Source: Pestalotiopsis fici W106-1
Taxonomy: Eukaryota > Ascomycota > Sordariomycetes > Amphisphaeriales > Sporocadaceae
Length of the DNA stretch: 64,000 bases
Assembly (NCBI RefSeq): GCF_000516985.1
Contig: NW_006917094.1
Span: 1,550,001-1,614,000 of the forward strand
Reading direction: 5' to 3'
Shown here one piece after another: positions 18,250 through 49,707 of this stretch (positions within the stretch are counted from its first letter, which is position 1; every line of letters begins with the position of its first letter). The notes under the pieces are model-generated. The model did not search any database. It was not told where the DNA came from and saw only the letters and a program-made list of their open reading frames with translations. Made by a program: the position numbers and the translations under genes.

Positions 18250-21124
18250 CTATATCAAGTCTTGAATCGTCATTTCCTGATCGAAGCAAGGGTCATCCTC
18301 GCATGCCGCCAGGGTCTCCAAGTCACCCTTTTTTATGGAAGTCATTAATGTTGAATATATAGTATTGTCTGACATTGTGATTTCCATTGGTAGCAATGAC
18401 TCATCAGTCGTGAATTTGTAGCCGCACTCGATCGCGTGGATCCAGATGAGGGTACAGAGCTGACGCCCAAAATCAGTCTTGTTCAGTCCAGTGCCTATTA
18501 AGTAAACCACAAAATCAAGAGCATCTGTTTCAAAAGCGACACTATGAGGCAGACTTTTTTGAATTTCCCATATATCCTCAGGACGCGGTAGCCAGCCACT
18601 CGCCAAGGTCCACTGTAGAGTCGAGTAGTTGCCGTAGCATTGTAGGTCCAACATTGCTACATCAAGAATCGTGTGTCCCAAACCACATACAAAATAAGCT
18701 GAAATGGTTTCACCGCGGGCAAGGAGAGCCTCACAGAGACGTGAATCCTTCTTGATGCTGCGGTAAGTGTACCCATGTAGAGGATCATGGCCAAAGCTCA
18801 CGAATGAGGAGATTCCCAAAGCTGCAAAGTCCAGCATAGAAGGCGCCTTGGTATTAGTGTAGTTGCAAGCACCTTGATCAATGAGCCACAACCCTACGTC
18901 AACAAGATTCAAGGCCGCAGCAACATGAAGTGTGGAGATATCTCGTCCCAACAAGACATCAACTGCGTGTTTGATCTTTGTTGACGTTACAACAAATTTG
19001 AATCCGTCAGAACCATTAGGCTCATTGATGTATGTATAAAAGGCAATGAGCCAATTCTTGTAATTTGTTGTCTTTTTTTGATGAAGCAGCACCTTTTCGA
19101 GGTCGAGTATCATGCCGGATTGTGCCATCCCTGCAGCCTGAGCGCGATGTGCCATTATTGGCCATGTCACTGCAGCAAAATGGTATAGTGGAAATTCATC
19201 GCAGGTCTTTTGCATGCTCCACGCCTCAGCCTCAAAGTCCCGGGAAACAGGTCCATCAAAGTTCTTCAGTAAGAGGAATCGAAGAGACTGTATAGCCGTG
19301 ATTTGATAGACCTTTTCATCTGCAATATGATACAATGCCAGGTCTGGCCTCTGGAGAAGCGAGGAGTCTTGCAAGTATTCGCGTACACTGAAGTGGGAGA
19401 ACTCGAAAAAGCGGCCGTCGTTTGATTTGCGAATGAAGCTAGAACAGCTGCGAGAGATTTCTTCATCCCTCACAATTGCTTCTTTGTCCAAAGTCACACC
19501 TATTTCATCCGGGGTAGAGACGGCCTGGCAAAGTTGTGGAATTGTAAGCTTGAAGTCGTCTTCCTCAACAGCAATCAGCTTCAAAGAGAGCTGCACAAGT
19601 CTTTGAACGCGTCCGTTTCGCTGATTTATGCGATGTAGTATTCGTTCATAGGTCTCAGGGAGAGTTCTTGGCAGCTCCTCAAGTGCCGCCCGCCGATCTG
19701 CATCCGTGGGACACTCGCACAGTACATCGAGTTGGCAAGCAACCCAACGGAACCTAAACTGTCAGTAAAGCGTTGCCATTTTCAAATCATGGATTGATCT
19801 GAACTTACATCCCTTGTGCCCCCTCAATGAGTTTTGACATGATTTCATCCTTGAGACTCGCATTCCCTAGTCTCAAGCGCTTCTGTTCAATCCTTTTTTC
19901 AAGCTCTGCGCCAACGAATAAGGATATGTCTTCCGTATGTGCGGCAATTGGAATGTGGTCAAAGTCAGTTTCCAGTTGATCGCTAATGTCAGCCTCGTGC
20001 CGACTGCACAGGGCCATTGATATGGTTCTCGCGTATCGTGCAACTTCGGAAAGCATTCTGCTTACTTCGCCAGCCTTGTCGCCACATTCGTCGAGTCCGT
20101 CGACCACCACCAGGACTTGGTCATATTCATTGGCTTGCCTCACAAATAAGTCCCGAAGATCTTCAATGTCGGGAGTCATTCTGAACCCAAACTGGGGCTC
20201 TATCTTGTCGTAATATTCCTTCAGCAATTGAAAGGACGAATCTCGTTGTCGACCTAGTTGTGCCATCAGGGCTCGCAGGATGTTCGAGATGTCCCATGAA
20301 CTTTTCTTTTTGTAGTCACAGAAGAAAAAGGCAACTCCAACCTTGGGCGTGGTCTCCAGGCGACTCAACGCTTCCCGAATGACGGCTCCAGCCAGGACTG
20401 TCTTACCGGCACCAGGTATTCCGCTAAGCCAAAGCTTTGACCGGGGCTCCGTAAGCCATTCACGGAATCTCGGGGACTCTGTGAGCCACAAGCCTGTCAT
20501 TGGCTGACGTAGATTCCAGCTTGTTCGGAGATTGGGACTCGGGTCATCGACCATGAAAAAGTCCAGAATCTTTGAACGCATGTGGTCGATTTTAATGCGC
20601 GTCAAAACCTTGAGGCTTTCCACACTCTTTTGTATTTGATTCAGTTTGCTTTCAACGTTTTGCACTTTGCTGAGACATGCCATGAGATCTGCCATTGTGC
20701 TAGCTTGCAACGCAAGCTGCAAAGTCTCTTTTTGACGTGAAAGCTCGTTGACCATTTCCATAGTTCTTGATTTCCCAAAAGGCCACTTCAAAGCTTGCAT
20801 GGCATGCTTGATGCTCTTGTTGTCACCTGGAGTAGGGTCAAATCTCACGATTCGGCCTAGGATCTCGTTCAGAACGGCCCGGCACGAGTGAACATGTTCC
20901 AGTCGTAAGGGAGAGGAGCGTGTGGCATCTTGCTCCAAGGTCTCGGTCAACAGCTTGACTCCGTGGAGGACGACGGCAACAGATTGTAATTCAGTGCAGA
21001 GTGCTTTGATATCCTTTTGTGCATTCGAAGCATCTTGAGTGTAGCGAAACACCCCACGAAACGCCGAATCGGCCAAAGACAGTAGACCCGCTATGCTGGC
21101 CGCGATAGACAAGGGATCAGCCAT
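18250..21124 (-). CDS. NLR-like STAND protein (HeLo-like N-term, NACHT, ankyrin start)
   Basis: Two exons, 19809-21124 and 18250-19753, phase-matched (939 aa before TAG). The N-terminus MADPLSIAASIAGLLSLAD is characteristic of the fungal HeLo-like/STAND N-terminal domain. A NACHT-type NTPase follows: Walker A GIPGAGKT at 235-242 and Walker B VLVVVDGLDECG at about 337-348, then a winged-helix-like LPETYERILHRIN and weak ankyrin-like units (DISTLHVAAALNLVDVGLWL). Fungal NACHT/ankyrin proteins of this build are NLR-like and linked to allorecognition and programmed cell death. The reading frame continues into ankyrin repeats after the stop (see 16632-18249), so this is either a truncated protein or a nonsense allele. 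The next gene upstream on the same strand is a HET-domain gene, another incompatibility family. Confidence 0.82.
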
Positions 21125-22185
21125 GGTGAGAAGATGCCCATGGGTTTGAATGAGTTGAGAATGGCGTTGATATGTCGTGTTTGAAGGAGAGAAACGATAT
21201 TGTCTTGTCTTTGCCCGTCAGGCTTCTGTAACCGGGATCTGGGCACCCCGCAGCCGAAACGATGGCTCTAGATATCAACATTGCAGCAGTCCAATCGTAA
21301 TTGACTTCCACCCGCAGCACAGCCCGAGGGCATGCGCAAGGCTCTCCTCGGGTGTCACGACATGCCATTATCTGCGCGTGGCCGATTGCCTGCAGAGAAT
21401 TGCGGACCAATAGCGGTATCACTGGAAACAGGTAGGCGGCCAAGGCATACTCGTCATGCGAAGCATGGTTGATAGGTACACTTGTAGCAGCCGCTGGAAA
21501 TCAACGAGAACAGCAAATCGCAGACATGAAATGGGAGGCTTGGTAAGAGAGTCATGCCAAGGAAAGATGTATCACGTCCACCGGGATCGAAGGTCCCCCT
21601 TCACTTGCGATTAATTCAATCGAGGTCTCAGGCTCTCGGTATGCGTGCGAAGGCTTGGATTGTTGCTGCAGTTCTTGACAGCCCCGCACCACCTTATTCC
21701 ATCTTATTACCGAACGGCGAGTTGCCCACAACACAGAGTACTAGATACCTACCTACCCACACTGGTATTACCATTTTACGCCGCCTTTCATAGTACAAGT
21801 CAATTTGATGATTCGAAAAATTCTCGACAAGGCTGACATTGTCCAATTCCTTCACTCATGGTTCAAAGAGAGAAATCATGCTATCAACTCTGATCTCGCT
21901 TTCCTTGGAATCAGTGCGCGATGTAGCCTTCTGGCTGCTGCTGCCGGACCAGGCTGTCCTTTGCTGAACTTGCAAGGCCCTCAAAGTCCTGCTGACGCCC
22001 ATGGCCTGGAGAACTCCACCACAGTGACACTCATGAACGCTTTTTGAGCTTCAAGGATGGCGTCTAACTCAAGAGTAGTGCAAGTGGAAGTTGCCATTGC
22101 CCGACTGGCAAGTAATACAATAACTGACTTGTCTCTCGCGTGCCACCTCCCAGAGCCCAAATGTGATTGCTCATACGGGTAGATT
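21125..22185. other. Intergenic between HET gene and NLR-like gene
   Basis: About 1.06 kb. It holds the HET gene's 3' flank and the NLR-like promoter. No gene recognised. Confidence 0.5.
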
Positions 22186-24302
22186 TCAAACCAAGACAAT
22201 ATCGCGTTCCACAAATAGTTGGCTCAACCCCAAATAGCAATCCACATACTCATTGTCGATACTTAGTAACCCGATTCGTACAAATTCCCCTTCAGCAGTG
22301 TCGTGAGGCACAACCACAAGTGCTTCCATGAGTGAATTCCCCACATGCACATTGCCTGAATCGCCGTCGTCGGCTGGCGGGTGATGGCAGTACATAATAG
22401 GCAACACTAATACAGCCACGTCATCCCCCGGTTTCGTACCTCTCAATTTGGTGTCGATACAAATATATGCATCCGCGTCGTCTCTCCAACATATCGACTG
22501 CCCATTCTCACAGTCAATTGACAAGCATTTGCCTCTGACTCGACCGTCTTGGTCGCCGTAAGGCTCCCTGATGGTACACGTCGCGGGAATAAGCTTGCCT
22601 TTCAGGTGCAAGGCCACGGCTGCCATTTCGCCACTCCAATCCAGGCGTCTTTCAATCCGAACAAGGCTGAATTCTTCAACGATATTTCTGCAGCGTCGGT
22701 GGTGCCTGATGCTGCCTGGGTGGATCTGGGAATCAATGCTGGCCCAGCTCCATGATGGTGCTCTCCACTGGACTGGCTTGGTCGGATTCCGATCAAAATG
22801 AACAAACCAACAGAGCTCCCAGCCAAGTTGTGGAAGCCAAAGCCCAGCGACGAAGTCTTCTTGGAGGTTGAGCTGCATGCAACGTGCAAACCCCTCGGCT
22901 ACGCCCCGAAGCGCCACCAGCTTGTCGGCTGGCTTAGTCAATCCACAACGCGTATAAGAAATGAGAAAAGTCCGCCAATTATTGAACATGTGTCTATGCC
23001 ACAGCTCCGACTTCCAGGATCTAGGACGAGCAACCCCTGATTCGCAAGGGTTCGGCATAAGGTCATAGAGTAAATCCTTCATTTTGAACTTGTTGTACAT
23101 CCAGTAAACCTGTTCCCCATAAACGGATTTTGGTGTTCCATTTGGGAAAGCTTCATTGGCATGGACATCGAGACATTCCCAGAACAACTGATCCCGAGCA
23201 AAGGATATAACTCGTTTGGAGAGAACGCGTTCCTGCATAACCCAAGCTCTCGTGTTTAACTTCTGCTTTTCGACAGAGTCTTCCCACTGTGTGGAGGATA
23301 ATACCAGGTATCTCTTGAGCTGTCTGCTCTTTTCGACTGTGTTTGTAGGCCAATGAACGTCTACCAAGAACGAGCAGTCCACCTCCTGCCTATGGGTGAA
23401 GAACAGCCCTTCTGTGCTATCAGCAGCTCCCGTCGCCGAGATATTGCAGACCGCGTTGGCGTAGACCTCGCACATTTTCGACGATTCGTGGTTCCAGTCG
23501 TCCCGGCTGTCTTGGAAAATACAAAGGGAGTCGATCCACAAGTACTCGAAACCCAAGTCACGCGTAATCTGTACAGCGTCGCGAAACGTCTTGGGGAGAC
23601 TGGTAGCCGCGATGCCATCTGTCAGGCCATCGAAAGTGCTCTTGTTAAGCAATGGCACGTTTGACTTTCCCCAACAGTGACTGAGAGTGAGATAAGCAAT
23701 ACTGTCCGATCGTAAATCATCAGTTGTTCTGAGGTAAACTTTATCCCGATCAGGACCAGCAACGTAGAGAAGTCGAGATGGGGGATCGTCTGCGAGATGA
23801 CGCGAAATAGTCTTGGTGCGGCACGCAGCATGGTTCTTAAGGCAGTTTTGAAGCTGGTCGACGCAGAACTGAAAAGACGATGCAGCTTTCGTAGTATCCG
23901 GGATAGATTCTTCGCATTTTATGCCGTCAAGTTCTTCATCATAGCGTGTTAGCTGCCATCCCTCATCGCAGCCAGTGGTTGAAAGGGGATCTTTAGCTCA
24001 CTGTCTGGGTCTCTAAGGTTCAGGTCAATACAAGATCCATGAACAGTTGTAGCGCTGTGAGCAGAAAGTCTGAGCGATAGACCAGACTCCAAGTCCCAAA
24101 CTTCGTAATATATTTGCCATTCTTGATCAAAGTGGCGCGAGATGAGTTTTGTATCAATAATAGCGCAAAGGCGGCACCATAAGCGCGACGATATCGTAAG
24201 AACGTCCTCGGATCGTAGTAAAACCTTTTCTTCATCAACGCTGATCGGATGCTGAAAAATCTTTCTGCAGTGATCGCATAGTGAGGCAACAGGTACAGAC
24301 AT
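22186..24302 (-). CDS. HET-domain (heterokaryon incompatibility) protein
   Basis: Two exons, 24002-24302 and 22186-23933 (682 aa), joined across a 68-nt intron (GTGAGC donor, GCTAAC branch). The N-terminus has CxxC pairs (LCDHC, CRLC) usual before fungal HET domains. The HET core is complete: YLTLSHCWG, LPKTFRDAVQITRDLGFEYL, WIDSLCIFQDS..DW and SKMCEVYANAVCNISATG, then TRAWVMQERVLSKRVISF, and WRAPSWSWASID in the C-terminal part. HET domains trigger cell death when partners with incompatible alleles meet. The trigger partner is not visible, but the NLR-like gene lies 1.06 kb downstream on the same strand. Confidence 0.9.
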
Positions 24303-44592: not shown

Positions 44593-46860
44593 TCTTTCAG
44601 GACCTCCCCACATCCAGGAGCCTTGTGTTTGTGAAATTCCGGTCGGGTAGTGCCTTTGCCCCGGCCTGCCGCTGGACAGAACCCCCGGACAACACACTTC
44701 ATCATCTATTGGTGATACCTAGTTGGTACCTACCCAGTAGGCTTGCGCCCTGGCCCAGGAAATCCATGGATATTGGCAACCGGACGGACTACCGGACAAG
44801 TGGATTCCAAAACTCCCAAGGGACTTGAATACTGGATTTCAAGTTTGGACGTCTCTAATCGAACTTGGTTTTCCTTTCTATTGTTTACTACGGATAGAGA
44901 AAGGATGACATGAAAAGACCAGAGCCAAGAATATTCCCGGGCGTCGACGTACCATTTTCCGCTTTTTCTTTTCCTTTATTTGTCACTCTTCCGGTTTGGC
45001 CGTTTTGAGAGAATCACAGTCCCAGAACCGGGAAAGAGGATGCAACTGCCGAGATGGCCAACTCGTTGATCCGACTGGAGGTTGGTCCTCAACCTAACTC
45101 TATAGAATGTCTCAGGACAGAAGGACTGGCTCGCACCGGTACTGTTATTCGGTATATAATTGGATGTTCTGGATTGCTTTTCATTGCTTGTACCTCTCTC
45201 ATATCCGTTCAATGTCAAAACAATGTCATATTTACTTTGGGGTAGTCCCCACGCAATTTGTACATGAGCGTCTGTATCTTGAAGCTCGGTAGTACGTTGC
45301 AGTCACGCTCGTTGTCATGTGTGTACCTGTGCATCAACAAATGCATTGGTAGCTTCATGGACATGCCCGATAAGCTCTCGGGTGCCTATCGTAGGTGATG
45401 AATGGTGAAAAATTGTGGCAAAAAAGTCCAACGTCATGATCGGGCTCGTCAAATGTTTGGCAGAATTGTCATGAATTTGCATTTCTGTTGGAAGGTAGGT
45501 ACACACTGACCTAGCATACCATATGCAGGCTGCCGTGGCTCCTAGCAAGTAGGCTAATTTATGGGGACAATTGTAAGAACTAAGATGCGGCCGCCGCCAA
45601 CTCCGCAAGTCAGCAGCTCGCTTGACAACTCACAGGCACAATGTCCACATCAAGCAAATCACCAATAGGTGGGTGATGCAGGTATCTGGACTATCAGGCT
45701 ATTATACGTGCTTGTCTCCATAGAGGCCAGACACTGGCCGGTCTGTTAACGAGCTGTATGCCTTGAGACACGTCCCTTGAGCGGAGTTTCCATTCAAGGA
45801 CTTAGTGTGGGTATCAAGTCATGATTTACAGATGATAGCATAGTAAAGAGTACTACTATGCAAATCCTTAGGTAGGCAGACAATGTGGGAAAGAGTTTCT
45901 CTTGTTTACATTGATAGATTGGTTTGACCTCAACACGCCTGTAACTATTATGGGATGCGCGTGGTGCTGGAAGGACCAATAAATTCATTCTTAGACTCGT
46001 GCAGATAATTTAAGGCCTTTTCTTCTTCTTCTTTTAATGACTCCTTTTCAAATTCCAGTTTCATAAAATTGTAAGTATCAATGTCATGCCTGTTCATGTC
46101 ATTCATTATCCTCCTAAGGTTAGGTATGTTGCAGGTATGAAGGTTTACCTTAGAGTTCAAATGTGGGGTCGGTTGCCTGGAGTCATGGACTGGCTGGCGT
46201 TAGTGCCGTGCCGGAATCCGCCCAGTTCTGCTGTGTTGTCTCACAGTCTCAAGCTCAGCCTCAACTCAGATTCTCTCGGCCTAGTCCACAAAATATCTGG
46301 CACCATCACCGCTTGACGCAGCGCACTTTTCGTCTAGTATCACATCAAGGTTCGTTGCGACCTATGAGAGTACACGGTCCAATCTGCTATGCAATCGGCA
46401 TGAAGATCCCTCCAGGCAGTATTCTGCTATGGTACGATACAATGCTTGTACGCTGCGGCATGTTAGCCCCAGCTGCTCAGAGTATCCAATGAGCGTCATA
46501 TACAAGATGGTGCGATAGCTCACGGAGCCGGCAGCTGTAATGAGTCACCGGGCAACTTGCAACACGGCCGCTAGCTACGCCGTACTCCAGGTCCAGGGCT
46601 GGCTGGCGGCTCCGGCTGCCTGCATACATGATACAGGAGGGGCATTGCTGCCTGTGCTTCAGCTCCTATATGTCGAAAGGTACATATAGGACCAGAGATG
46701 CCCAAGTTGAGATTCTTTTTTTTCAGCAAGCCAGCATCATCAACCTCTCCCTTCTTTGCCCTTGATCAGCAAGAAGCGACCTTAGGCCAGATTCACCCTA
46801 GTCCTTCTTGTCCCTTCATTTTACAAATTTGAGAAATAGCCCTATTGGGTAGATATCATC
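44593..46860. other. Gene-poor region upstream of the H3-tail AAA ATPase
   Basis: About 2.27 kb. No gene recognised. A 70-codon charged minus-strand frame (45948-46160, Glu/Lys-rich) could be a relic but is too short to name. The last 150 bp before 46861 are C/T-rich, with an eight-T run near 46720, as expected of a leader. Confidence 0.45.
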
Positions 46861-46923
46861 ATGGCTCGTACAAGACAGACAGCTCGTCGTGGTGGTGGTG
46901 GCAGTGCCCCACGCAAACAGCTG
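46861..46923 (+). other. Histone H3-tail mimic at the protein N-terminus
   Basis: After Met, the residues ARTRQTAR align with H3 1-8 except R for K4; then R for K9, G for S10 and T11, GG kept (12-13), S for K14, and APRKQL identical to H3 15-20. That is 15 of 20 positions identical, with no gap. The loss of K4, K9, S10, T11 and K14 removes the main methylation, acetylation and phosphorylation sites while keeping A1, R2, Q5, T6, R8, R17 and K18. A further GGVRHY a few residues on recalls H3 GGVKKPHRY. Confidence 0.85.
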
Positions 46924-49707
46924 AACAACTCCAGCAGATACGGAGGTGTGCGTCACTACGATGAAGAATACATGAAGGCCCAAAAGAAGGCCGAGCGCCA
47001 CGAACGCATTGTGGCAGACCAGCTACGTGTTGATGCCAAATGGCGACCCAAGATCCCCGCAGTTCGCAAGGTCAACTGGGAGGACTTCAAGAACCACTTC
47101 CAAGATGTCGACAAGCCAGAGTATGCCATTGAGGTTTTGGTGGCCAACGCCAATCTCCAATCTCAGATCAGACAGGAGCAGGGACTTCGACGCAAGGAGG
47201 ACTTTGCCCGCATGCGCGAGAGCTGGATGAAAGAATGGGGCGCAACCAAGCCTGAAGGTCCCCAGAATAGTTCGTCTGCCCAAGACAGGGCGAGAAGAGA
47301 GGATAGAGCCAGGAAGGAAAAGAGAGCCGACATGGCTCAGCTTCCTGGAGGACAGATTCAACGTGTCCGGATCCAATCTCAGCCCGTTCTCGGTCATCTT
47401 ACCGCCCTGTTCAATGAGACTTACAAGAGATCTTCGCCGCGGACGTTCCTGCGACCCTTCAGGTCTCTCGTCTACTTCCAACCCAAGATGAAGGCAATCT
47501 TGGCATCTTTGGAGGAGAAGTGGGGCGACGTTGAGGACCTGGACGATGTCTCTGGTAGAGGTGTCGATACCTTTGACGATGTTGATGTTGTTGAGAAGCC
47601 CGGAAGCTCCACTACATCTGGCGAGAACAATGATGACGCTCAGAAGAATGAATCCGGTGAAGATTTCCCTGACGATATCTCCCTGGCATCGGTTGACTCC
47701 AATGCTGAGGACATTGACTTGTTCATGGACAGCACCGAGGCCCTCCGCGACATGCGCTGCTACGTCAACTTTGTAGACGAGGAGATCATGCCGCTGTACC
47801 AGCAGTTTGATGGAAACTCGGCTACCACTGTCAGATACGACGACCTTTGGGCTCTGTTCCGTGTCGGTGACCTGATCTACTTTCCATCAGCTGGAGAGAC
47901 TGGTGGTCGTTACCACGAAGTCTGGCGCATCTACCGTGTCGAGTCACCAGATGCAGACATCTCCTATCCCAAGGCGGGAGGCGAGTTCTACGCTGACGAG
48001 TTCGGAGAGTCGAGGAACGAAGGGTTCAAGATCTATGCCTACTACATTGACCACGATGGCACGAGCTTTGGTGCCGTCCGTCACAAGTTTGAGATTGAGA
48101 ATTTCCCTGGAGAGCGTGCCATTGACAGCCTGGAGGTCTTCCCGATTCGTTTCTGGGACGATCGCCAGAACGCCCTGGATACTCTGAAGTCACAAGGACG
48201 AAGCTTCCAGAAATACCTCGAGGCCAGCAACCGTCACCAGTCGTACTCGGCTTGGACTCTGACTCGCAACCCGCCTTTCGATACCGAAGATGTAGAAGAT
48301 GAGATCCTCAGAGATGAGAACAATGCTGAGATGCGTCACCCAGAGTTTGTGGAGAGTGACGTCATTGTCGACATGATGGAGGCCTACCACAAGAATCCCG
48401 ACTGGCGACCTAGATTCCACACACCGGCACTGACCAAGCCAATTCTCTGCAACGGAGAGGAGGATGAGATGCCAATCCAGCAATGGTATGACGGAGCACG
48501 CGGCAAGCTCGCATATACAGTGAATGAACTTGTTCAAACCAAGGACGGCATCGAGACCTATCAACGTCGCGAGAATCTCAACGTGGACAAGTTCCTGCGC
48601 CAGAGGGTTAGGGGAACGCGCCGGTATGAGAAGGATCCCACGGCTCTGGAGCTGCGCGAGGAGGACCTCATTCTCCTGCCCAGGCGCATGTTTGCCTATG
48701 TTCTACGCGAGCGTAGATTTGTTCCGGTCAACATCAACTTTCTGCAGCCGATCCGCCGCGACCAGGGTGTGTTTGAGAGTCTCAGCATCCAGAAGGACTA
48801 CAAAGACATTGTGCGCGGTCTGGTGGTCTCGCACTTCCAGAAGAAGGGACTCGAGCGTCGCTATGCCGAAGTTCCCGTCGAAGGTACTGGCCAGGATCTG
48901 ATCCAGGGTAAGGGTCGAGGTCTTGTTGTCCTCCTTCACGGTGTGCCCGGTGTGGGTAAGACGGCGACTGCTGAGGCAGTCGCCATGGAGAACCGCAAGC
49001 CGCTGTTCGTCATCACTTGTGGTGACCTCGGTCTGTCTCCGTCCCAGGTCGAGTCGTCGTTGACCAACGTCTTCCGCCTGGCCAACCTCTGGGACTGTGT
49101 ACTTCTGCTCGACGAAGCCGACGTGTTCCTTACGCAGCGGTCCAACGATGACATGAACCGTAACGCCCTAGTCTCGGTCTTTTTGCGCGTGCTCGAGTAC
49201 TACAACGGTCTGCTATTCCTGACGACCAATCGTGTAGGCAGCATCGATGACGCCTTCAAGTCGCGTATTCACATGTCGCTGTACTACCCGCCCTTGGACA
49301 AGACCCAGACCCGCGACATCTTCCGCCTCAACATTGCCAAGTTGCGCGCCATCGAGGCCCAGCGCTGTGCCATGACGGGCGATCAGCCCCTTGTTATCAA
49401 GGAAGATGATGTCTTGGCCTTTGCTTCCAAGCACTACGAGGACAATGCTCGTCTGACGGCCTGCTGGAACGGCCGACAGATCCGTAACGCCTTCCAGGTC
49501 GCCTCCAGCTTGGCCAACTACAAGTTTGCCGACGACGTCAAGACGGCACACGCCCTCGGCCGGGCTCCGCCTGCCGCGCCTGTCCTGGATGGCAGCCTGT
49601 TTGAGAAGGTCCAGATGTCGACAGTCAGCTTCGACAGACACATGCAGGATGGTCGGGGTATCGATACAGATTTGCCACTGAGGACCACCTTTGACAGGAA
49701 GCACTGA
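46861..49707 (+). CDS. AAA ATPase with histone H3-tail-like N-terminus
   Basis: Intronless 948-aa protein. Residues 2-21 copy the H3 tail (see separate entry). A charged linker (to about residue 170) and a large conserved N-terminal region follow, with YVNFVDEEIMPLYQQF and DDLWALFRVGDLIYFPS, typical of fungal DUF7025-type AAA proteins. The AAA core has Walker A HGVPGVGKTATAEAV (about 693-707), Walker B CVLLLDEADVFL (about 746-757), sensor-1-like FLTTNR, and an arginine-finger-like FKSRIH near 800, then a C-terminal lid (ARLTACWNGRQIRNAFQVA). Proteins of this build are predicted remodelling ATPases, mostly uncharacterised. The start is well fixed: ATG followed directly by the H3-like residues after a CT-rich leader. 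It sits between two divergent copies of an orphan membrane protein. Confidence 0.88.
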   Translation: MARTRQTARRGGGGSAPRKQLNNSSRYGGVRHYDEEYMKAQKKAERHERIVADQLRVDAKWRPKIPAVRKVNWEDFKNHFQDVDKPEYAIEVLVANANLQSQIRQEQGLRRKEDFARMRESWMKEWGATKPEGPQNSSSAQDRARREDRARKEKRADMAQLPGGQIQRVRIQSQPVLGHLTALFNETYKRSSPRTFLRPFRSLVYFQPKMKAILASLEEKWGDVEDLDDVSGRGVDTFDDVDVVEKPGSSTTSGENNDDAQKNESGEDFPDDISLASVDSNAEDIDLFMDSTEALRDMRCYVNFVDEEIMPLYQQFDGNSATTVRYDDLWALFRVGDLIYFPSAGETGGRYHEVWRIYRVESPDADISYPKAGGEFYADEFGESRNEGFKIYAYYIDHDGTSFGAVRHKFEIENFPGERAIDSLEVFPIRFWDDRQNALDTLKSQGRSFQKYLEASNRHQSYSAWTLTRNPPFDTEDVEDEILRDENNAEMRHPEFVESDVIVDMMEAYHKNPDWRPRFHTPALTKPILCNGEEDEMPIQQWYDGARGKLAYTVNELVQTKDGIETYQRRENLNVDKFLRQRVRGTRRYEKDPTALELREEDLILLPRRMFAYVLRERRFVPVNINFLQPIRRDQGVFESLSIQKDYKDIVRGLVVSHFQKKGLERRYAEVPVEGTGQDLIQGKGRGLVVLLHGVPGVGKTATAEAVAMENRKPLFVITCGDLGLSPSQVESSLTNVFRLANLWDCVLLLDEADVFLTQRSNDDMNRNALVSVFLRVLEYYNGLLFLTTNRVGSIDDAFKSRIHMSLYYPPLDKTQTRDIFRLNIAKLRAIEAQRCAMTGDQPLVIKEDDVLAFASKHYEDNARLTACWNGRQIRNAFQVASSLANYKFADDVKTAHALGRAPPAAPVLDGSLFEKVQMSTVSFDRHMQDGRGIDTDLPLRTTFDRKH

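Follow-up and report, generated by a model that had tools for sequence, protein, structure and literature searches.

To our knowledge, few proteins have a start that mimics the tail of histone H3, and most of the known cases are short or come from animals. The SNAG domain is described as an H3 mimic, with starts that are not near-identical to H3. As far as the available parts of the respective papers go, this N-terminal domain recruits LSD1, potentially at the catalytic site, in SNAI1, GFI1 and INSM1 (PMC12143397); PAF15 (PCLAF) has a non-histone N-terminus that resembles H3 1–4 and is bound by the H3-binding PHD of UHRF1 (PMC8034647); shugoshin-1, which starts AKER, presents an N-terminal Ala peptide to the H3-tip pocket of survivin (PMC13040270); and Yta7, Abo1 and ATAD2 are AAA+ ATPases that bind the H3 tail, Yta7 with two AAA modules and a bromodomain (PMC9898759). 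Here we analyse a 64,000-nucleotide stretch of the Pestalotiopsis fici W106-1 genome (contig NW_006917094.1, positions 1,550,001 to 1,614,000, forward strand; hereafter the window), in which an open reading frame (ORF) for an AAA+ ATPase begins with a likeness of the H3 tail, so that the fungus's own ATPase bears up to 20 H3 residues.

The comparison with these systems is close in some respects and distant in others. PAF15 is mammalian, interacts with PCNA and resembles H3 over four residues, whereas the copy on the fungal AAA+ protein spans 9–20 residues at most and residue 4 appears free outside one clade. Unlike the SNAG factors, the ATPase has the start sequence of H3 itself and the carrier is an ATPase; its likeness to SNAG and LSD1 would be one of analogy. 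Survivin is probably insensitive to position 2 and favours R or K at position 4 according to the available part of PMC13040270, and the ATPase family shows the opposite outside a Xylariales clade. Unlike Yta7, the window protein carries an H3-like tail rather than binding one, and has one AAA domain, a DUF7025 domain and no bromodomain match in a Pfam scan. Its architecture is that of the fungal DUF7025/AAA/AAA_lid_13 ATPases, called ‘related to TOB3’ in some annotations; by contrast, no conserved H3-like start is shared by the 120 proteins listed from one paralogous DUF7025 family. No paper on the H3-like start or on the ATPase was found among the matches listed from the open-licence PMC literature. 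H3 mimicry at a protein's N-terminus is already known, and what appears new is the fungal AAA+ carrier and a residue 4 that seems free in much of the family. The H3 copy of the window protein is longer than in any animal case known to us.

The start of the ATPase and its likeness to H3

The window protein begins MARTRQTARRGGGGSAPRKQL and is in register with H3 from the initiator Met. The features on which the comparison rests are as follows.

46861–49707, + strand: AAA+ ATPase ORF, 948 aa, intronless
46837..46839, + strand: in-frame TAG stop preceding the start codon
46864..46923, + strand: H3-tail-like segment, residues 2–21 ARTRQTARRGGGGSAPRKQL, 15/20 identical to H3 1–20, ungapped
46864..46887, + strand: block 1, residues 2–9 ARTRQTAR, common to orthologues of several orders
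46906..46923, + strand: block 2, residues 16–21 APRKQL, equal to H3 15–20 by sequence comparison

An H3-tail look-alike placed exactly at the initiator Met had been proposed in the first-pass annotation, and this is borne out in full: against the H3 gene of the same genome (C4:4422239, on the same contig), 15 of 20 positions agree without a gap, and the five changes (K4R, K9R, S10G, T11G and K14S) are as claimed. Local alignment of residues 2–31 with H3 1–34 gives z = 10.3, with none of 2,000 shuffles as good. A phmmer search of 177,635 distinct PDB sequences with residues 1–44 returned 130 matches at E ≤ 10, the best 60 of which are all H3, H3 peptides or variants (including Cse4; top E 4.2e-5), and the start of the orthologue P0077 likewise gave 127 matches, the best 60 all H3-type chains (top E 0.0074); among these two sets of H3-type chains, one entry is a DNMT3A–H3 fusion. 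Within the genome, the codon pattern M-A-R-T-x-Q-T has three DNA matches, namely the ATPase gene, H3 and one with TGA as its fifth codon, in a search by exact words that skipped very common words and would miss intron-split starts.

The protein sequence agrees with H3 although the underlying DNA has diverged: at nine of the 15 identical positions the two genes use different codons, and of 63 bases, counting the start codon, 42 are the same, which argues against recent copying from the H3 gene. Judged from these comparisons, neither chance nor fresh duplication of H3 DNA explains the likeness. The start codon stands in the context ATCATCATGG; together with the upstream TAG, this means that the reading frame cannot open further upstream, and the first in-frame Met after the initiator is residue 38.

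Further segments of the protein are as follows, all on the + strand.

46861..46956, + strand: predicted disordered N-terminal tail, residues 1–32 (AlphaFold2 pLDDT under 50; block means 31–39)
46954..47043, + strand: predicted helix, residues 32–61, at the end of the variable linker, containing a segment that reads AERRERILADRRR in consensus
47815..48156, + strand: DUF7025 (PF22942), residues 319–432, Pfam, 81.3 bits
48928..49287, + strand: AAA ATPase domain (PF00004), residues 690–809, Pfam, 67 bits
49300..49650, + strand: fungal AAA lid (PF23232, AAA_lid_13), residues 814–930, Pfam, 36.4 bits

PF22942, PF00004 and PF23232 occur in this order, each over its cut-off, which makes the window protein a DUF7025 fungal AAA+ ATPase; its AAA domain contains GVPGVGKTA, which we take to be the Walker A motif. 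The description ‘remodelling ATPase’ given to it earlier is not supported, since this is a protein with a single AAA domain, DUF7025 and AAA_lid_13, and no SNF2 or helicase family is among its seven Pfam families at E ≤ 0.1. The closest orthologue among the matches listed, P0001 from Neopestalotiopsis clavispora, is 96–97% identical. An AlphaFold2 model of the window protein is mediocre (mean pLDDT 66.5, pTM 0.57) with a poor AAA core, possibly caused by eight rows of the paralogous family mixed into the alignment; only the disorder of the tail is therefore drawn from it. A fold search of the PDB with this model gave nothing at E ≤ 0.001.

The H3-like start among orthologues

Searches with the window protein (best 120 of 181 matches) and with P0077 (best 120 of 222), used as second query for its H3-like start and contributing eight further proteins, yielded a family of 128 relatives, or 129 proteins with the window protein. 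Ten of these have no complete start and were left out (P0041, P0065, P0091, P0095, P0097, P0109, P0113, P0115, P0117 and P0125), leaving 119; residue frequencies were counted on 113 starts, before six more joined. The commonest residues at positions 1–8 of the 113 starts are A, R, T, K, Q, T, A and R, identical to H3; Ala follows Met, as residue 2, in 88, and position 9 is R in 38 and K in 31. The 119 starts match H3 1–9 at 4.19 positions on average (at least six in 31, at least seven in 20, at least eight in 12 and all nine in 3, with ARTKQTAR exact in 5), compared with a mean of 0.97 for shuffled starts (maximum 6 in 500 rounds). As a control, two variants of the H4 tail match the same starts at means of 1.07 and 1.04, and the 120 listed of 824 proteins in the paralogous family match H3 1–9 at a mean of 0.85 (maximum 5). 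Three orthologues, P0056, P0060 and P0077, open with MARTKQTARK. Examples of orthologue starts are given below.

P0056: MARTKQTARKSTRGGG
P0077 (Diplogelasinospora): MARTKQTARKRTGRPAP
P0060 (Mariannaea): MARTKQTARKIRRAP
P0098: MARTKQTTRKPIPRR
P0067 (Poronia): MARPKQTARKPPRAS
P0002: MARTKQTARGGRAPRKQL

On these alignments, the H3-like start is a family trait, traced in orthologues of several orders.

This distribution sets the individual changes of the window protein in context. The loss of the main modifiable sites had been taken for an ‘unmodifiable’ mimic, and as a design this is not supported at the level of the family: 28 of the 54 starts with ART have K4, only five have Arg at residue 4 (the window protein, P0001, P0104, P0015 and P0037), and three keep both lysines in MARTKQTARK. 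Of the ARTxQTAR...APRKQL start whose retention in orthologues the first-pass annotation proposed to check, the H3-like first part is seen in several orders. Among the 119 starts, an exact APRKQL is confined to the window species, P0001 and P0002, with shorter look-alikes in P0017, P0070 and P0112; in P0002, ARTKQTAR is followed by GGRAPRKQL, which equals H3 minus K9-S10-T11 with K14 as R. An H3 match extended past residue 9 at p ≤ 0.05 in 24 of the 119 starts, against 7, 11, 17 and 18 with one reversed and three shuffled H3 sequences as controls. A match beyond residue 9 was thus rejected as a family trait: it is weak against the controls, and apart from the window species, P0001 and P0002 it convinces in few starts.

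Constraint on the tip and what it may be for

A tree was built from the protein cores and rooted on one distant paralogue, and eight named taxa were assigned to their orders. A match of at least six of nine residues is present in 5/6 members of the Amphisphaeriales clade, which holds the window species, and in 23/50 members of a clade with Hypocreales, Glomerellales, Microascales and one Sordariales species; the trait changes 19 times on the tree, compared with a mean of 27.7 and a minimum of 22 when shuffled. The Sordariales species is Diplogelasinospora grovesii (P0077), the only recognised member of its order among the orthologue names listed. Its closest named match among those listed, at 79%, is Fusarium nematophilum, and its isolated position may reflect either sparse retention or horizontal transfer.

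Across the 62 tips outside a 57-member Xylariales clade, parsimony changes number 10 for A1, 10 for R2, 14 for T3, 26 for K4, 21 for Q5, 27 for T6, 33 for A7, 24 for R8, 28 for K9 and 26–41 for residues 10–21, with a mean of 7.2 for the protein core. Because ungapped counting from Met inflates the changes at later positions, a pairwise comparison by distance was added, in which 2,500 of 7,021 pairs were drawn at random. Outside the Xylariales clade, these fall into five bins of rising distance (17, 56, 319, 180 and 89 pairs), with the following identities.

Residues 1–3: 0.92, 0.86, 0.67, 0.52, 0.72
Residue 4: 0.35, 0.32, 0.18, 0.23, 0.15
Residues 5–6: 0.53, 0.46, 0.35, 0.28, 0.47
Aligned linker: 0.59, 0.34, 0.23, 0.23, 0.22
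Shuffled linker baseline: 0.30, 0.25, 0.21, 0.21, 0.21

Beyond a distance of 0.4, the linker lies no more than 0.02 from its shuffled baseline. The Xylariales clade itself shows the opposite pattern, with 0.50–0.71 for residue 4, 0.36–0.59 for residues 1–3 and 0.00–0.43 for residues 5–6. By these measures, A-R-T-x-Q-T is kept outside the Xylariales clade, Q5-T6 less strongly than the first three residues, and residue 4 is free. Free variation of the segment among orthologues, which the first-pass annotation had named as counting against its proposal, is therefore seen in part: residues 1–3 and 5–6 are kept outside this clade, whereas residues past 9 vary freely among orthologues and the clade itself has mostly lost the match. 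Because ART and QT persist whereas residue 4 is exchanged freely, the changes K4R and K9R are local and the independence from K4 is general.

The best explanation of these patterns, to which we give slightly less than even weight, is that the tail is an exposed H3-like docking peptide on an AAA+ ATPase, read without K4. Initiator Met is as a rule removed from Met-Ala starts, and its removal here would expose Ala1 as in H3. The peptide would then dock in a pocket that belongs to the chromatin machinery of the fungus itself and recognises A1-R2-T3-x-Q5-T6 independently of K4, a candidate being a PHD-type reader anchored on arginine 2. Such docking could tether the ATPase to a reader complex, or the tail could compete with H3 there, and, with K4 dispensable, the binding would lie outside the control that K4 methylation exerts on H3. 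The second block, APRKQL, lengthens the copy in Pestalotiopsis and two close relatives, and most of a large Xylariales clade has lost the motif. More specifically, and as a tentative proposal that we hold with distinctly lower confidence, the H3 tip may serve as a docking address indifferent to residue 4, making the ATPase a constitutive competitor of the H3 tail, or a recruiter, that acts without regard to K4 methylation; the address would extend to H3 residue 20 in Pestalotiopsis and have been given up by most of that clade.

The orthologues amount to a natural mutagenesis series that separates a free residue 4 from a kept A1-R2-T3 and Q5-T6 outside one clade, so that the fungal pocket reading the H3 tip in a K4-independent way can be sought by direct test. 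The H3-like start would also give a first handle on the large DUF7025 ATPase family. Two known pockets bear on the choice of reader. In the available part of PMC8034647, the UHRF1 PHD binds both the ARTK of H3 and the N-terminal VRTK of PAF15, and in that of PMC5852437, R2 anchors the peptide in the Win site of WDR5, where H3 K4 makes no contact with the core and F133 and F263 form a phenylalanine clamp. The best WDR5/Swd3 match in the P. fici genome (L050) scores 179.5 bits for one exon, with a Pfam cut-off of 250. At what we take to be the clamp positions, Y and G stand opposite the two phenylalanines of the fly protein; the second of these positions falls at one end of the alignment, where confidence is low. 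The clamp seems altered in the P. fici homologue, which makes WDR5/Swd3, otherwise an attractive candidate for the R2 anchor and the lack of K4 contact, a doubtful partner rather than an excluded one.

Several observations weigh against a maintained docking peptide. A match of at least six of nine occurs in only 3/57 members of the Xylariales clade, in 0/4 of a Diatrype/Monosporascus clade and in 0/2 deep members, and most of the 57-member clade, judged from its starts, has lost the motif. Residues 7–9 stay near the linker level outside the Xylariales clade (0.35, 0.32, 0.21, 0.21 and 0.25 over the five bins). Between sister pairs, residues 2–9 are 0.55 identical outside this clade, compared with 0.46 for the linker and 0.82 for the core (n = 31; above the linker in 18 and below it in 10), and 0.52 inside it, compared with 0.57 and 0.88 (n = 28; above in 9 and below in 17). 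The starts of P0098 and P0014 match nothing in the PDB at E ≤ 10, and short conserved starts are not rare in such proteins, MAPG opening 36 of the 120 listed paralogues. The deep branches of the tree also depart from accepted orders, with Xylariales members in two places, and the origin of the H3-like start is for this reason left undated. Constraint on residues 2–9 is thus weak in sister pairs, and on present alignments the motif is constrained partly and in some lineages, not frozen.

The main rival, which we consider possible but on the unlikely side, is an H3-like start acquired once by an ancestor of the orthologue group and now a relic, drifting in a basic, Arg/Gly-rich disordered tail that has no H3-reader partner and serves nuclear import or nucleic-acid binding. 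It would account for a sister-pair identity of residues 2–9 close to that of the linker, for the loss of the match in most of the Xylariales clade and in the four Diatrype/Monosporascus members, and for the abundance of R, K and G in most of the orthologue tails inspected. However, outside the Xylariales clade, residues 1–3 (0.52–0.92) and 5–6 (0.28–0.53) outlast the fall of the linker to near its shuffled baseline, and a tail that is merely basic would not favour T3, Q5 and T6 over K4.

The freedom of residue 4, which speaks for a K4-independent docking peptide, argues against a substrate of Set1 or a ligand of a pocket that measures K4. A mimic of the methylation substrate, in which Set1 and DIM-5 would modify K4 and K9 as in H3 and methyl readers would be recruited, is accordingly very improbable, even though MARTKQTARK persists in three orthologues, K4 stands in about half of the ART starts and no residue is better kept than K4 within the Xylariales clade. 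Outside this clade, replacement at residue 4 is no slower than in the linker, and in the window species both K4 and K9 are Arg. DIM-5, according to the available part of PMC3248561, requires H3 R8–G12; here R8-K9-S10-T11-G12 is not kept, the window protein reading R-R-G-G-G and residues 10–12 being free in the family, and a role as substrate or inhibitor of DIM-5 is not supported.

Docking to the chromosomal passenger machinery, in which a free Ala1 and a phosphorylated T3 would bind the BIR of a fungal survivin homologue in the manner of H3T3ph and shugoshin, is likewise very improbable. The genome does contain two adjacent BIR matches (C3:1852201–1852672, one with an internal stop, introns disregarded) and a haspin-type kinase match (C3:4574594), and both A1 and T3 are kept. 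Survivin, as described in the available part of PMC13040270, needs Ala1, prefers R or K at position 4 and is probably indifferent to position 2, whereas in the ATPase family Ala1 is kept, R2 is among the best kept residues and position 4, free outside the Xylariales clade, is the most changeable of the first five. DIM-5 and a survivin-type BIR thus fit poorly as partners on the pattern of kept residues.

Equally little weight falls to a pore element, that is, a tail acting as pseudo-substrate or loading handle for the pore of its own or a Yta7/ATAD2-type AAA+ protein. The AAA1 chamber of Yta7 threads an N-terminal H3 peptide, modelled N-terminus first, but its density is modelled as residues 10–24 (PMC9898759, available part), the variable portion in the ATPase family; the low-confidence tail and AAA core of the predicted model neither support nor exclude such a role. 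Least credible is a low-complexity basic start that happens to resemble H3, for which the chance MARTK of the P. fici paralogue P0129 (closest listed relative starting MAPSRV) offers a precedent, since shuffles never exceed 6/9 where 20 of the 119 starts reach at least seven, M-A-R-T-x-Q-T was found as a start only in H3 and the ATPase gene by the exact-word search of the genome, and the family-wide distribution disfavours it.

Other histone-like starts and neighbouring features

Two members of the Xylariales clade that have lost the H3 match, P0013 and P0032, start MTGRGRGKKG and MTGRGNGRRG. They match TGRGKGGKG, which we take to be the H4 tail, at 7/9 and 6/9, and the other 117 of the 119 starts at no more than 5.

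DUF7025 has 28 matches in the P. fici genome when counted exon by exon (L010–L037), at about 26 loci. One of these, L020, has an N-terminal helix region in common with the window protein; no H3-like start is present in the 1.5 kb upstream of its DUF7025 match. Another paralogue, at C1:173969–174235 on the − strand (L013 and L038), starts MARTKAAAQRS; spliced by eye, it shows 100% identity with PFICI_00053 of Pestalotiopsis fici W106-1 across 710 aa. As a conserved H3 mimic this start was rejected: among its 120 listed relatives (of 824), two match at 5/9 and the others at no more than 3, and because of these low matches and the 36 MAPG starts among them, the resemblance is put down to chance.

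Internal H3-like stretches occur in an open frame of about 538 aa at C6:1514072–1514091 on the − strand (loci L067 and L070), which has a Lys/Ala-rich middle and no Pfam domain over cut-off. The two stretches, SRPKQTARRGG and PRTKQTARRGGG, lie 32 residues apart and resemble RTRQTARRGGGG of the window protein; a PDB search with the H3-like stretch of this C6 protein gave no H3 match. Elsewhere in the window, at 19805–23475 on the − strand, an ORF with NPHP3_N, which is presumably NACHT-like, and an ORF with a HET domain are near one another, an arrangement familiar from the surroundings of fungal incompatibility genes.

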